Part shown: positions 50,612 through 55,807 of the stretch, one piece after another
Layout: each line of letters opens with the position of its first letter
Numbering within the stretch: position 1 is the first letter of the stretch
Source: Acidimicrobiia bacterium
Lineage (GTDB): Bacteria; Actinomycetota; Acidimicrobiia; IMCC26256; PALSA-555
Assembly: GCA_040881685.1 (NCBI GenBank)
Contig: JBBECS010000050.1
Span: 75,588 to 139,587, forward strand
Direction: 5' to 3'
Length of the DNA: 64,000 nucleotides
The notes under the pieces: generated by a model
Databases searched by the model: none
Told to the model about the DNA's origin: nothing
Seen by the model: the letters and a program-made list of their open reading frames with translations, nothing else
Made by a program: the position numbers and the translations under genes

Positions 50612-51349
50612 GTGCTCGCACTTCCCGCGATCGAAGACCCACAAAGCTTTGTCGCCACGCGGCAGGCCTGGCACACCATGGCCGAGCACGTGCTCGCGGC
50701 AGCGCGATACAACGCCGAAGGTCGCATCGGGCTGCGCGCCGCGCCCGGCGGGTACAGCACGCCGCCATACGAGCGCTCGGGTGTGGTCGAGGAGCTCCGG
50801 GTCGCGGCCGACGAGCTGCACGTGCACCGCGACGGTGCGGAGATCACGCACCCGCTGACGACGATCGCCGCAGCAGCGAACGCCGTGAACATCGAGCCGG
50901 GCGCACCCGCGCACGTGTACACGCCGTACACGTCGTTGGAACCTGCCGCGCCCCTGACGGTCGATCTCCGAGCGGCCGAGATCCTCGCGTCCTGGTTCGC
51001 CCTCGGCTGGTCGGTGCTCGAGGAGCTCGCCGGCACCGCCCGGGTCAACGATGCGCCCCCCGAGATCACGTTGTGGCCCGAGCACTTCGACGCGGCAGTG
51101 GAGCTCGGAAGCGCAGACGTGGGGGCGCGCGGCACGTTCGGGGTCTCGCCGGGCGACCACGAGCACCTCGAGCCGTACCTCTACGTGACCCATTGGGCAG
51201 GCGTGCCCACCGACCTGTTCTGGAACGACGCCGCGTTCGCGGGAGCCAGCCTTGGCTACGGGATTCTCCGTGCAAGTACCGACCCGAGCTCCGCCGCGCT
51301 CGACTTCTATCGACGCGGCCTTGCCGTGCTCAGCGCGCCCCGGAGCTGA
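50612..51349 (+). CDS. Uncharacterised protein coupled to the hydrolase
   Basis: A 245-residue soluble protein that I do not recognise. It reads as a mixed alpha/beta fold with FVATRQAWHTMAEHVLAAARY, GRIGLRAAPGGYSTPPYE, EELRVAADELHVHRDG and a C-terminal GRGTFGVSPGDHEHLEPYLYV-like stretch (about 174-190). GTG start one base after the hydrolase stop. The last 20 bases overlap the convergent acylase gene. Confidence 0.75.
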   Translation: MLALPAIEDPQSFVATRQAWHTMAEHVLAAARYNAEGRIGLRAAPGGYSTPPYERSGVVEELRVAADELHVHRDGAEITHPLTTIAAAANAVNIEPGAPAHVYTPYTSLEPAAPLTVDLRAAEILASWFALGWSVLEELAGTARVNDAPPEITLWPEHFDAAVELGSADVGARGTFGVSPGDHEHLEPYLYVTHWAGVPTDLFWNDAAFAGASLGYGILRASTDPSSAALDFYRRGLAVLSAPRS

Positions 51350-53615
51350 GCCGGGTCGAGTCCGATCCGATGGCGGCCAGGTCGTTCCAGCTCGCCCACG
51401 CGCGCAGCAGCTCTCCCGCCGCCCACGCGCGCTGCTGATCCGCGAAATGCTCGCTGCCCCGATCACCCGATGCCCCCAGCGGGACGACCCACCGACTGTT
51501 CCTACGATCGCCGAGATCGAACACATACCGCGCCACCGATGCACCCGTGACCCCGAAGCCGAAGCCCGCCGGGTGGGCCGCGTTGAAGACCGTGTCGGAG
51601 TCGCCGCCCATCTCGATCGGCGCCGGGTCGAGCTCGATCGCGACGTCAGGTCGGACCGCTGAGAGTGGATGGGACGGAGCGCACGAGTGCAGGGCTCCCC
51701 ATCGCCACGCGCCGACGTCGTCGCCGAGCAAGGTCCTCAGCACACCCACACCGTTGGTGACCGCTCCGGCCAGGAGCTCGGTCCAAGTCTGTTCGTCGCC
51801 GAGGAGGGTTCGGTCATCGACTGCGAGCAGCTCCGTCAGCAGCGGCCACAGCCGCAGCTCGAGAGGTAGGAAGGTCGCGCTCGGTTCGCCCTCCAAAGGA
51901 GCTCGCAGCGCGGCCAACCGCGGGTCATGGGCGATGATCCGGCCCGCGGCGTCGCGAACCGCGAGGTACACCGCGGCGCCGATCGAGTCGGCGTCCATCG
52001 CCCGATCCCAGGCGCGGAGCGCGCCGATCGAGTCGCGCTCCCATTCGTCACGCCCATCGATCGCGGCGATGTGTTCGACCCACACGTCAGCAGGAAGCGA
52101 TCGGCGGTCGCGGTGCACGAGCGCCATGTCTTCGACCGTGACGTCGACCGCGTCATCGAGGCGATCGTGCAGGCGACGTGCTCGGTCGGGACGGGCGTAG
52201 TCCAGACCGAGATGGTGCGGATACGCGTCGCCGACGATTCGCTGGTTCGCGGTCACGATCAGTCCCCCGGCTGGGTTCTTCGTCCGCGGGAGCTCGTCAT
52301 GAGAGACCACGCCGCTCCACTCGTACTCATCGGTCCACCCGGGCACCGGGCCCCACGCGTTTGCCGGCGAGCGCACCGGGACACGACCAACGGTGCGATA
52401 GCCGATGTTGCCGTCGACATCAGCGCTGACGAAGTTGTTCACCGGGTCGACCCACGAGCGCATGACGTCATCGAGCTCGTCCACGTTCGCGGCGCGCAGC
52501 ATGGGCTCGAGTACGGACAGACCCGCGCTCGGCTCGACAAGGGCCGTGGAGCGAAGCGCCACCGCGTGACCCGATGCGGGATCGCCGAACACGACGGGGC
52601 CATGGCGCGTCTCGAGGCACTCGACGGACACCGCATCGGAGTCGTGGACCTCGACGGTCTCGGTTCGTCGCTCGGGCTCGAGCCACGCGCCGGCGGCCTC
52701 GTACCGGAGTGAGCCGTCGTCTCGGAACCGCTCCACGTAGAGGTCTTGGTAGTCGCCGTTGGCGTTCGTGACGCACCACGCGATCCGATCGGTCTGACCG
52801 AAGTGGGGGAAGCCGGGGAGGCCGACGAACGCCAGCCCGACCGCGTCGAACTCGGGACACGCAAGGCGGCACTGGTAGTAGACGCCGGGAACCTCGACGA
52901 GTCGGTGAGGATCACCCGCGAGCAACGGCTGACCTGATGCTGTGCGGGAGCCGTGGACCGCCCACGCGTTGCTACCGTTGGCCGACTCGACCAGCATCCC
53001 GGTTGCGTTGGCAACCGGGGCCAGTTGCCTCGGGTCGTGCACGGCGGCGCGCCACCACTCACCCGGCGGGACGATGAGTGGCGTGTCGCTCGCAGCATTG
53101 CCCTCGAGGCGCGCGACAGTCTCGGGACCGAGCACGACCGCGAGGCGGCCTCGCCACAACTTGCGCTGCCAGTTGGCGAAGACGACGTGGCGCACGAGGA
53201 ACACCGCGCAGCAGTCCCACGGCGACCATGCCTCGGGGGTGACGCCCATGGCACGAAGATCAGGCGGCATCGCCATGCCACCCTCGATGCGCGCGTTCAC
53301 GCCCGCGGCAAACGCGATGAGCGGCTCTCGCGCGTCGGGAGGAAGCCCCTCGTACTCGCGACGGGCGGCGTCCCGAAGCCCACAACGACGAACGAAGATG
53401 TCAAAGCCCAGCGCACCTCGCCCCGCAACCTCTGCCCACTGCCCGTAGGCGCGACGTCGGTCGTACTCGAGCTGCCCGAGTCGGTCTTCTGCTTGAACGA
53501 AGCCTTGGGCAACGAACGCGTCCCTCGCGGTGGACGCCTGGATGTGCGGGATCCCCAACTCGTCTCGATGGATCGTGACCTCGTCGTCGAGCCCGACGAC
53601 CGACACATCCACCAC
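51330..53615 (-). CDS. Penicillin acylase-family N-terminal nucleophile hydrolase
   Basis: A 761-residue Ntn hydrolase. The alpha region begins DELGIPHIQASTARDAFVAQGFVQAEDRLGQ; the autocleavage site is at GSNAWAVHG (about residue 245), where the Ser becomes the new N terminus and nucleophile. Later GLPGFPHFGQTDRIAWCVTNANGDYQDLY and the ANQRI (oxyanion Asn) motifs are present. There is no obvious signal peptide, unlike most secreted relatives. Start at GTG 53615, seven bases after TAGCGT; a GTG at 53624 is an alternative. Substrate could be an acyl-amide such as an N-acyl homoserine lactone or cyclic lipopeptide. Confidence 0.9.
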   Translation of the reverse strand: MVDVSVVGLDDEVTIHRDELGIPHIQASTARDAFVAQGFVQAEDRLGQLEYDRRRAYGQWAEVAGRGALGFDIFVRRCGLRDAARREYEGLPPDAREPLIAFAAGVNARIEGGMAMPPDLRAMGVTPEAWSPWDCCAVFLVRHVVFANWQRKLWRGRLAVVLGPETVARLEGNAASDTPLIVPPGEWWRAAVHDPRQLAPVANATGMLVESANGSNAWAVHGSRTASGQPLLAGDPHRLVEVPGVYYQCRLACPEFDAVGLAFVGLPGFPHFGQTDRIAWCVTNANGDYQDLYVERFRDDGSLRYEAAGAWLEPERRTETVEVHDSDAVSVECLETRHGPVVFGDPASGHAVALRSTALVEPSAGLSVLEPMLRAANVDELDDVMRSWVDPVNNFVSADVDGNIGYRTVGRVPVRSPANAWGPVPGWTDEYEWSGVVSHDELPRTKNPAGGLIVTANQRIVGDAYPHHLGLDYARPDRARRLHDRLDDAVDVTVEDMALVHRDRRSLPADVWVEHIAAIDGRDEWERDSIGALRAWDRAMDADSIGAAVYLAVRDAAGRIIAHDPRLAALRAPLEGEPSATFLPLELRLWPLLTELLAVDDRTLLGDEQTWTELLAGAVTNGVGVLRTLLGDDVGAWRWGALHSCAPSHPLSAVRPDVAIELDPAPIEMGGDSDTVFNAAHPAGFGFGVTGASVARYVFDLGDRRNSRWVVPLGASGDRGSEHFADQQRAWAAGELLRAWASWNDLAAIGSDSTRLSSGAR

Positions 53616-53622
53616 GGTGGTC

Positions 53623-53628
53623 ACGCTA
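53623..53628 (-). promoter_or_regulatory. -10 box of the penicillin acylase-like gene
   Basis: TAGCGT on the minus strand, seven bases before the GTG at 53615. Confidence 0.5.
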
Positions 53629-53682
53629 CGCCCCGCTCGAACCGCGCCTGGGGGCATTCCCCTGACGCGCGAGCATCGCGGT

Positions 53683-54639
53683 GTGCACGAAGACCTGATC
53701 CGTTCGGCCCGCCGACGGATTCGGATCGTCGCGGTGATCGGCTTCGCTGTGCTCGTGCTCACGATGGGCGCGATCGTGTTCCCGGTCGCGTGGGTCCTTG
53801 GTGCGGCGTCGAACCCGCTCGGCACCGACCTCGGCTATGGATGGGGCCTGGCGGCGTGGAGCGCGTGGGTGAGCCTCGGGATCGGCCTCGTTGTCGGCGC
53901 TGCGACCTTCGCGTGGTCGTTGCTGCATGTGGAGGGACGCGTGCTCGACTTCGTGCGTGCCTGGCCCGGCCCGCGCGCCGGACCCAAGCCACCGCCCCGG
54001 CTCCCCCACGATGCCGTCGAACGCACCGAGAAGCTGCTCATCGGTCTCGGTCTCGCGGCCGGGGTCCACGCGCCACGTATCGCCGTCGTCATCGATGACG
54101 CGCCCAACTGCCTGACGGTCGGCCGGCGGAGCGACACGGCATGGCTCGTGGTGACCACAGGTCTCCTGGACACCTTGCCGAAGCGCGAGCTCGAAGCCGT
54201 GCTTGCGTACGAGGTCGGGCGCGTGGTCGAGCTCGAGGTCTCGCTCGACACGGTCGTCTATGCGTTGACGGCGCGGACGTTCGAGCTGTGGGCCGCGGCC
54301 TTCGATGACCTCGACGAGGTGTCGCTTCTGCTCGCGCCGCTTGGCCTCATCGCGTTTCCGTTCGTCGTCATCAGCGCGGTGCTGCGGGCCTCCGTTCTCC
54401 GGAGTCGCGCGCGTCTGGCCGATGGGCTCGCGGTCCGCTATTGCCGCAACCCCGTCGCGCTCGCGCACGGGTTGCGGCGGATCCTGGAGGACCCACGCGA
54501 AGTGCGCCGAGGCGATCCTGCCAACGCCCATTTGTGGCTGGAATACCCGCATACCCGCTCGTCGCGCTTGTTCTTGCGCACACACCGCATCCTGCCCCGA
54601 CGCGTACGCCGCCTCGAGCGCGCGGCTGGTCTCGGCTAG
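53683..54639 (+). CDS. Degenerate M48-type (HtpX-like) membrane peptidase homologue
   Basis: A 318-residue protein with two N-terminal membrane helices (about 13-40 and 55-80) and an M48 peptidase-like domain. The family landmarks are intact: APNCLTVGR, AWLVVTTGLLDTLPKRELEAVLA. But the zinc motif HExxH is replaced by Y176-E-V-G-R180, and the downstream third-ligand region reads RARLADG. It is thus very likely catalytically dead. GTG start. Its stop overlaps the stop of the convergent selenoprotein gene by four bases. Confidence 0.8.
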   Translation: MHEDLIRSARRRIRIVAVIGFAVLVLTMGAIVFPVAWVLGAASNPLGTDLGYGWGLAAWSAWVSLGIGLVVGAATFAWSLLHVEGRVLDFVRAWPGPRAGPKPPPRLPHDAVERTEKLLIGLGLAAGVHAPRIAVVIDDAPNCLTVGRRSDTAWLVVTTGLLDTLPKRELEAVLAYEVGRVVELEVSLDTVVYALTARTFELWAAAFDDLDEVSLLLAPLGLIAFPFVVISAVLRASVLRSRARLADGLAVRYCRNPVALAHGLRRILEDPREVRRGDPANAHLWLEYPHTRSSRLFLRTHRILPRRVRRLERAAGLG

Positions 54640-55172
54640 CTCGCGACCCGCAACGCGCCGATCACGTCGTCGATCGGTGCGTGGTCGGCCGAATGGGCAT
54701 CGAGGTACTCGTAGGCCACGAGCTGACCTGGCCCCACGACGAAGGTCGCGCCGAGCTGCGTGACCCTCGCGCCGGGCTTGTGAACCTTGTGACCTGAGGC
54801 TCGTGCTCGACGCGTTCCCGCCCAGCTGCGCGGGTTGAGGATCAGCTTGAAGAAGTTGACCTTTCCCACTCCGGCCGCGCGTGCTGCGTCACTGTTATCG
54901 TCCACAAGCACTGGAAACGGCACATGCTCGTCATCGACGAACGCAGCCGCATGCAAGCGGTTCCCTGTCCCCACCGCCACGACCTCGCCGTGGAGGCCCT
55001 TGATCTCGTCGTAGCGCTCGCGCAACTGCGCGGCATGCTCACGGCAGAGCAGTCAGCCGAAGTGGCGCAAGAACACCAGCACGACGGGCCGCGCAGCCCA
55101 GAAGTCACCGAGCCGTCGGAGTGCGCCCCTCGAATCCTCGAGCTTCACGTCGGCAAGCGTCGCGATGTCCAC
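54636..55172 (-). CDS. Peroxiredoxin-like (AhpC-TSA_2) protein with in-frame TGA, probable selenoprotein
   Basis: The frame from a GTG at 55172 is interrupted only by TGA at 55055-55053, then continues for 138 codons to a TAG/TGA-type stop at 54636. Upstream it encodes DIATLADVKL and VVLVFLRHFG; downstream LLCREHAAQLRERYDEI and the thioredoxin-fold body (FPVLVDDNSDAARAAGVG, TQLGATFVVGPGQLVAYEY). Homologues have FLRHFGCxxC here, so the TGA replaces the first redox Cys: U40-L-L-C43. A hairpin with GU in its loop follows (55019-55032). Total length with Sec is 178. A simple nonsense mutation is the alternative, but the position and the intact promoter and frame favour selenocysteine. Confidence 0.8.
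55019..55032 (-). promoter_or_regulatory. candidate bSECIS hairpin
   Basis: On the RNA a 5-bp stem CGCGC/GCGCG with loop AGUU starts 21 bases after the UGA, with the loop G at base 27. A GU in a small apical loop at this distance is the usual bacterial SECIS pattern. A lower 4-bp helix (GCUC near base 3 with GAGC near base 34) can form as an alternative. Confidence 0.55.
55053..55055 (-). other. in-frame UGA at the redox-Cys codon (probable selenocysteine)
   Basis: TGA as codon 40, followed by CTG CTC TGC, giving UxxC in place of CxxC. Confidence 0.75.
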
Positions 55173-55178
55173 GGGACC

Positions 55179-55184
55179 ACCGTA
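55179..55184 (-). promoter_or_regulatory. -10 box of the selenoprotein gene (leaderless)
   Basis: TACGGT on the minus strand, exactly six bases before the GTG at 55172. It shows that the gene starts upstream of the TGA. Confidence 0.55.
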
Positions 55185-55252: not shown

Positions 55253-55807
55253 ATGACCACAGCAACCACCTTCACCCGCATGGACGAGTCGACGGCTGAG
55301 CAGTGGGCAGTCATCGGCAAGGAGACCATGGAGCAGCAAGGTCGAGTCGCCGAGGGCGTACTCGCCATGCTGCGGTCGCTCGCCGACATCACCGATGGCT
55401 TTGCGGTCGATCAGCTCACGCACTGCTTGCAGACCGCCACGCTGGCCGAGCGCGCCGGCGCCGATGACCAGATGGTGGTCGCGTCGTTGTGCCATGACAT
55501 CGGCAAGGCGATCAGCGTCCCGAACCACCCGAAGATCGCCGCCGAGGTCCTGAAGTCGTATGTGCGCGACGACGTGTACCAGGTGATCCGCGTCCACCAG
55601 GACTTCCAGGGCCGGCACTACTACCACCACTTCGGTGGTGATCCCGACGCGCGCGAGCAGTACCGCGGCGAGCCATGGTTCGCGCTCGCCGAGCAGTTTG
55701 CCGACGAGTGGGATCAGATCGCTTTTGATCCCGACTACGACACGCTTCCACTCGAGCACTTCGAGGACCGGGTACGGAACGTGTTCGGCTCACCCCACTC
55801 TTTGTGA
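55253..55807 (+). CDS. HD-domain protein (PhnZ-like)
   Basis: A 184-residue HD-fold protein. Metal ligands are seen in LTHCLQTATLAERAGADDQMVVASL (His early), the LCHDIGK core (HD) and VIRVHQDFQGRHYYHHFG. The overall order recalls PhnZ/MIOX-like di-iron oxygenases more than phosphohydrolases, but this is an inference. The ATG at 55253 is chosen. It is divergent from the selenoprotein gene and convergent with the PGA hydrolase-like gene. Confidence 0.8.
   Translation: MTTATTFTRMDESTAEQWAVIGKETMEQQGRVAEGVLAMLRSLADITDGFAVDQLTHCLQTATLAERAGADDQMVVASLCHDIGKAISVPNHPKIAAEVLKSYVRDDVYQVIRVHQDFQGRHYYHHFGGDPDAREQYRGEPWFALAEQFADEWDQIAFDPDYDTLPLEHFEDRVRNVFGSPHSL

Follow-up and report, generated by a model that had tools for sequence, protein, structure and literature searches.

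The window, a 64,000-nucleotide stretch of an Acidimicrobiia genome (3.1 Mb in 54 contigs, estimated completeness 100%), carries a gene for a peroxiredoxin-like protein whose reading frame is interrupted by a single TGA codon (Table 1). The frame runs on the minus strand from GTG 55172 to TAG 54636 and, with the TGA translated as residue U40, gives a protein of 178 residues. A sequence-only reading had proposed this gene as a candidate selenoprotein, and its account of the frame held on translation: the TGA at 55055-55053 is the sole internal stop, and it stands for the first redox residue in HFG-U-LL-C, within the motif VFLRHFG-U-LLCREH (in a longer rendering, VFLRHFG-U-LLCREHAAQLRERY). Genes for a penicillin amidase family protein, an M48 peptidase and a divergently transcribed HD-domain protein lie nearby; the last resembles the HD oxygenases of phosphonate degradation (Phn-HD), with a score far below the cut-off.

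Table 1. Features in and around the predicted selenoprotein gene (positions in the window)
Feature	Position	Strand	Basis
Penicillin amidase family protein	51330-53825	minus	614 bits
M48 peptidase	53530-54639	opposite to the selenoprotein gene	
Predicted selenoprotein gene, UxxC peroxiredoxin-like (AhpC-TSA / AhpC-TSA_2)	54636..55172	minus	translation, Pfam, NF040769, orthologues
Predicted bacterial SECIS hairpin, CGCGC-AGUU-GCGCG, 5-bp stem	55019..55032	minus	loop invariance, covariation, synonymous freezing
Resolving Cys43 (predicted)	55046-55044	minus	
In-frame TGA, predicted U40, first UxxC redox residue	55053..55055	minus	TGA in 18/21 and Cys in 3/21 orthologues
GTG start codon	55170..55172	minus	ATG/GTG at the equivalent place in most orthologues
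TACGGT -10-like promoter element	55179..55184	minus	TANNNT at 12-14 nt from the start, 17/21 orthologues
Divergent HD-domain protein	55253-55807	plus	

The readthrough product scored 54.2 bits against Pfam PF00578 (AhpC-TSA; gathering threshold 26) and 48.2 bits against PF13911 (AhpC-TSA_2; gathering threshold 27). Among 61 related genomes we found 21 orthologues, among them genes with matching start, length and TGA. Eighteen contain a single TGA, which is at the U40 codon in every case; the other three encode Cys there. The in-frame UGA thus lies where homologues have Cys or Sec, and an alignment at codon 40, which the earlier reading had suggested as a check, showed TGA and not TGC in close relatives.

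The genome also encodes the machinery that selenocysteine insertion would need. It contains a tRNA-Sec scoring 66.8 bits, above the Rfam cut-off, which ARAGORN likewise calls as SeC with anticodon UCA; selA (469.6 bits), followed directly by selB with the two matches 12 bases apart; and selD (403.9 bits), so that all four components named for this search in the sequence-only reading are present.

Under the standard code the TGA breaks the frame, and the gene could accordingly be regarded as a dying one in which a Cys codon, TGC or TGT, has mutated to TGA. Several observations make a nonsense-mutated pseudogene extremely unlikely. Eighteen orthologues, drawn from many families, retain the TGA, a degree of conservation that refutes such an origin, and its presence tracks that of selA. 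The protein itself is conserved, with dN/dS well below 1 on either side of the TGA: against the nearest relative, dN was 0.215 and dS 1.03 before the codon, and dN 0.135 and dS 1.03 after it (dN/dS ~0.13-0.21), and no other disabling changes were seen. The draft state of the source genome, with its 54 contigs, might instead suggest a sequencing or assembly error, but independent assemblies from different projects give the identical codon, which refutes this explanation and leaves it a negligible probability.

A further alternative is that the real gene is the downstream 129-codon open reading frame starting at TTG 55025. This is the one that the ORF finder gives; as had been anticipated, its list for this frame holds nothing but the TTG-started fragment of 129 aa, 55025-54636. 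That fragment, however, would be missing the redox motif as well as the protein's first strands and helices, and the residues that are invariant in the family alignment, F34-H46, lie upstream of it. In addition, a conserved -10 element precedes GTG 55172, and we give the shorter gene hardly any credence. For the full-length gene, the TACGGT at 55184-55179 does end six bases before the GTG, as first described, its first base lying 12 nt from the start codon. A TANNNT beginning 12-14 nt before the start occurs in 17 of the 21 orthologues, against a local background of 0.4% per gene; the binomial P, which treats the orthologues as independent, is hence too small, yet conservation of the position is clear. 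The orthologue starts showed no consistent Shine-Dalgarno sequence. In actinobacteria, a conserved -10 element close to the start without a Shine-Dalgarno sequence is the pattern of leaderless genes, and because the gene fits this pattern, its mRNA is probably leaderless, with the 5' end at the GTG. Standard gene callers would truncate or drop the gene, and its annotation at 54636..55172 is therefore a correction.

The hairpin described in the sequence-only reading, a 5-bp stem with an AGUU loop, begins at the 21st base after the UGA (55032-55019), with the loop at 55027-55024 and 25 nt separating it from the UGA. The AGUU loop was invariant in 32 of 32 distinct aligned sequences, a set with distant UPFC-type paralogues and a single sequence of UIPC type; this invariance applies to the aligned set, from which two UIPC-type sequences with an AGGU loop (L042 and L045) had been left out. 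Two sequences (L057 and L080), which we counted as partly broken, retain a 5-bp stem, but their loop is AGUUU and the register is shifted. Within the 32-sequence alignment, compensatory changes to both sides were seen in six of the seven stem pairs. Double-changed cells numbered 16, compared to 6.7 in shuffles, and the covariation score was 0.233, compared to 0.089; in neither case did any of 500 shuffles reach the observed value. Shifting the pairing partners by 1 to 3 columns lowered every measure, except for the pair-type count, which tied at +2, and RNAalifold gave the identical stem. The element thus combines a small G-containing loop, a position just past the UGA and a covarying stem, as bacterial SECIS elements do, and its retention along with the TGA in orthologues of many families indicates more than a chance hairpin.

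The coding sequence tells the same story at the level of codons. Synonymous sites after the TGA are frozen at codon +1 and at codons +7 to +11: codon +1 is CTG in 18/18, +7 is GCC in 16/17 and +8 is GCG in 18/18, while codon +10 is TTG in 18/18 even though TTG makes up 15% of the Leu codons in these genes. The three Cys orthologues have CTT, CTG and CTG at codon +10 and ACC, GTG and GTG at codon +8, a release that is as expected if the constraint serves Sec. The single-sequence folding energy was not unusual relative to shuffled sequences (z = -0.56), so the support for the SECIS is comparative and does not come from stability. No Rfam family fits the hairpin, the loose threshold giving chance matches alone. 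Genome-wide, the pattern of TGA plus GCAGTTGC occurred 11 times, compared to 22 in the control; with no excess, this pattern cannot by itself find other selenoproteins.

A full-length protein would likewise result if the UGA were read as another residue, whether by near-cognate Trp or Cys readthrough or through reassignment of UGA. We consider this very improbable. Orthologues of the gene terminate in TGA, which argues that UGA is not reassigned in the lineage; the genome encodes a Sec-specific tRNA as well as SelB, and Cys is the alternative residue at the site. Moreover, the AGUU hairpin is constrained solely when the TGA is present. Taken together, the Sec machinery, the conservation of the TGA, the comparative evidence for a SECIS and the purifying selection bear out the earlier proposal and indicate that the gene almost certainly encodes a selenoprotein in which the UGA at codon 40 is read as Sec.

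The split between Sec and Cys forms also follows the distribution of the machinery. Of the 18 TGA-form genomes, 17 have selA, whereas it was found in none of the three Cys genomes (exact P = 4/1330, ~0.003); the latter are incomplete drafts (64%, 74% and 88% complete) in which absence is weaker evidence, and none of them has a tRNA-Sec over the cut-off. In the assemblies of some Sec-form genomes a component is missing, selA in G055 and a tRNA-Sec over the cut-off in G031 and G050. The tree places the three Cys forms of Actinomycetota at two separate points inside the Sec forms, and we therefore conclude from their placement that Sec was lost to Cys twice, independently. These two changes among close relatives, in which selA was not found and the SECIS codons were released, offer a natural experiment on the retention and loss of Sec.

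The family extends beyond the orthologue set. A scan of named genomes, using a degenerate DNA pattern for FLRHFG-[U/C]-LxCREH, matched 33 places, 27 of them with TGA, mainly in assemblies of Acidimicrobiia and other Actinomycetota; further matches fell in some assemblies labelled Deltaproteobacteria (Myxococcota in the tree) or other proteobacteria and in three Cerasicoccus (Verrucomicrobiota). Two matches belong to the genus of the source genome, probably a freshwater one. Orthologues in assemblies labelled Deltaproteobacteria/Myxococcota (L067, L073, L076 and L078) nest within the Acidimicrobiia tree, through either horizontal transfer or mis-binning of contigs. A back-translated protein scan of genome contigs gave no match, its patterns, which avoided the motif, being perhaps too specific. 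At E <= 1e-30, the family was found in 26 of 396 genomes sampled from the phylum, with TGA in most matches. One locus (L104; G084:C130:56116-57215) holds a tandem pair of Sec-form copies, both with the TGA and the hairpin.

Paralogous Sec families occur in related genomes as well, namely, UPFC/UPHC-type (L043, L046, L047, L048, L050) and UIPC-type (L042, L045, L049) peroxiredoxin-like proteins. The UPFC/UPHC paralogues and L049 have an AGUU-loop hairpin at an equal distance from the UGA; L042 and L045 have AGGU. We somewhat favor a reading in which this lineage of Acidimicrobiia possesses a selenoprotein subfamily with leaderless mRNAs and with recoding directed by a minimal 5-bp AGUU hairpin, the latter shared in design with UPFC-type and some UIPC-type paralogues. 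If this is true, several of the lineage's selenoprotein families rely on a single loop signature. Among TGA-holding AhpC/TSA genes, the source genome has one further Sec gene only, a second selenoprotein of PrxQ/BCP type (L085; G000:C36:237470-237844, +; FTPGU-TLQLRSYRDDF) with its TGA at the peroxidatic position.

A confident AlphaFold2 model built on the family alignment (pLDDT 93.2, pTM 0.89) has a thioredoxin fold, in which U40 immediately precedes helix 41-52. The top solved match in Foldseek was human prostamide/prostaglandin F synthase (9usa, titled as a C44S/C47S double mutant; TM 0.81/0.88, E = 7.7e-12), and a sequence alignment to the same protein, PRXL2B (E = 7.8e-5), places U40 and C43 on its CxxC. 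The model thus has the Prx-like2 fold of SelU/PRXL2 with CxxC/UxxC at the helix start. As the human enzyme is SelU3 of the SelU/PRXL2 family (PMC3473315), the term "SelU-related" in the sequence-only reading is fair at the level of fold.

These results suggest the following model. SelA, SelD and tRNA-Sec would produce Sec-tRNA, and SelB, bound to the AGUU-loop hairpin just past the UGA of an mRNA that probably starts at the GTG itself, would deliver Sec at codon 40; the ribosome would then continue to TAG 54636. The predicted product is a peroxiredoxin-like oxidoreductase of thioredoxin fold, whose U40 selenolate, at the N-terminal end of helix 41-52, would attack a peroxide or disulfide. C43 would resolve U40 as a selenenylsulfide, which a thiol reductant would then reduce. 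Because the fold and the CxxC alignment match human SelU3/PRXL2, peroxide or disulfide reduction through a U40-C43 selenenylsulfide is the likely chemistry. On this model, freshwater and soil Acidimicrobiia use selenium in the active site of an antioxidant-type enzyme.

Among curated protein families, the nearest NCBIfam model is NF040769, SelL-related redox protein. All 31 aligned relatives match this model, and the window protein matches it over nearly its full length, at 110.8 bits, just short of the curated cut-off of 120. The motif of SelL, after which the model is named, is UxxU; this motif was absent from the window protein and the relatives inspected, which have UxxC. A match with two TGA codons (G171), examined as a possible UxxU form of SelL, was rejected because its second TGA is the terminator. 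The protein shares a thioredoxin-like fold with ResA and with PrxQ/BCP peroxiredoxins (e.g., PDB 5epf, M. tuberculosis BcpB) but differs from the latter in its active-site context, UxxC rather than the TxxC of Prx.

Members of SelU/PRXL2, including human PRXL2B (PDB 9us9, 9usa), are the top sequence and fold matches among solved structures, with CxxC aligned at U40/C43 and the AhpC-TSA_2 domain in common. The human enzyme, however, is only ~20% identical to the window protein, has Cys and acts on prostamide, a substrate not known for the bacterium, and eukaryotic SelU carries its SECIS in the 3'-UTR, in contrast to the coding-region hairpin after the UGA seen here. By description, a close counterpart is the Prx-like selenoprotein family, with an AhpC/TSA domain, UxxC, a coding-region UGA with a downstream bacterial SECIS, and Cys homologues. 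Prx-like thiol:disulfide oxidoreductases with UxxC or UxxU (PF00578) are listed in reviews as a predicted selenoprotein family (PMC13188914, Table 1), and marine surveys commonly recover UxxC proteins of the Prx-like kind, as "Prx-like 1" of the GOS survey (PMC2398784). Selenoproteins of Actinobacteria have been on record since 2006 (PMC1794560); our literature search found no selenoprotein report for Acidimicrobiia. Collectively, these comparisons identify the gene as a very well-supported addition to the already known UxxC Prx-like selenoproteins, enzymes of a general kind known to use selenium. To these it adds a lineage, a minimal AGUU SECIS that is conserved together with its codon signature, and a start of leaderless type that is likewise conserved.
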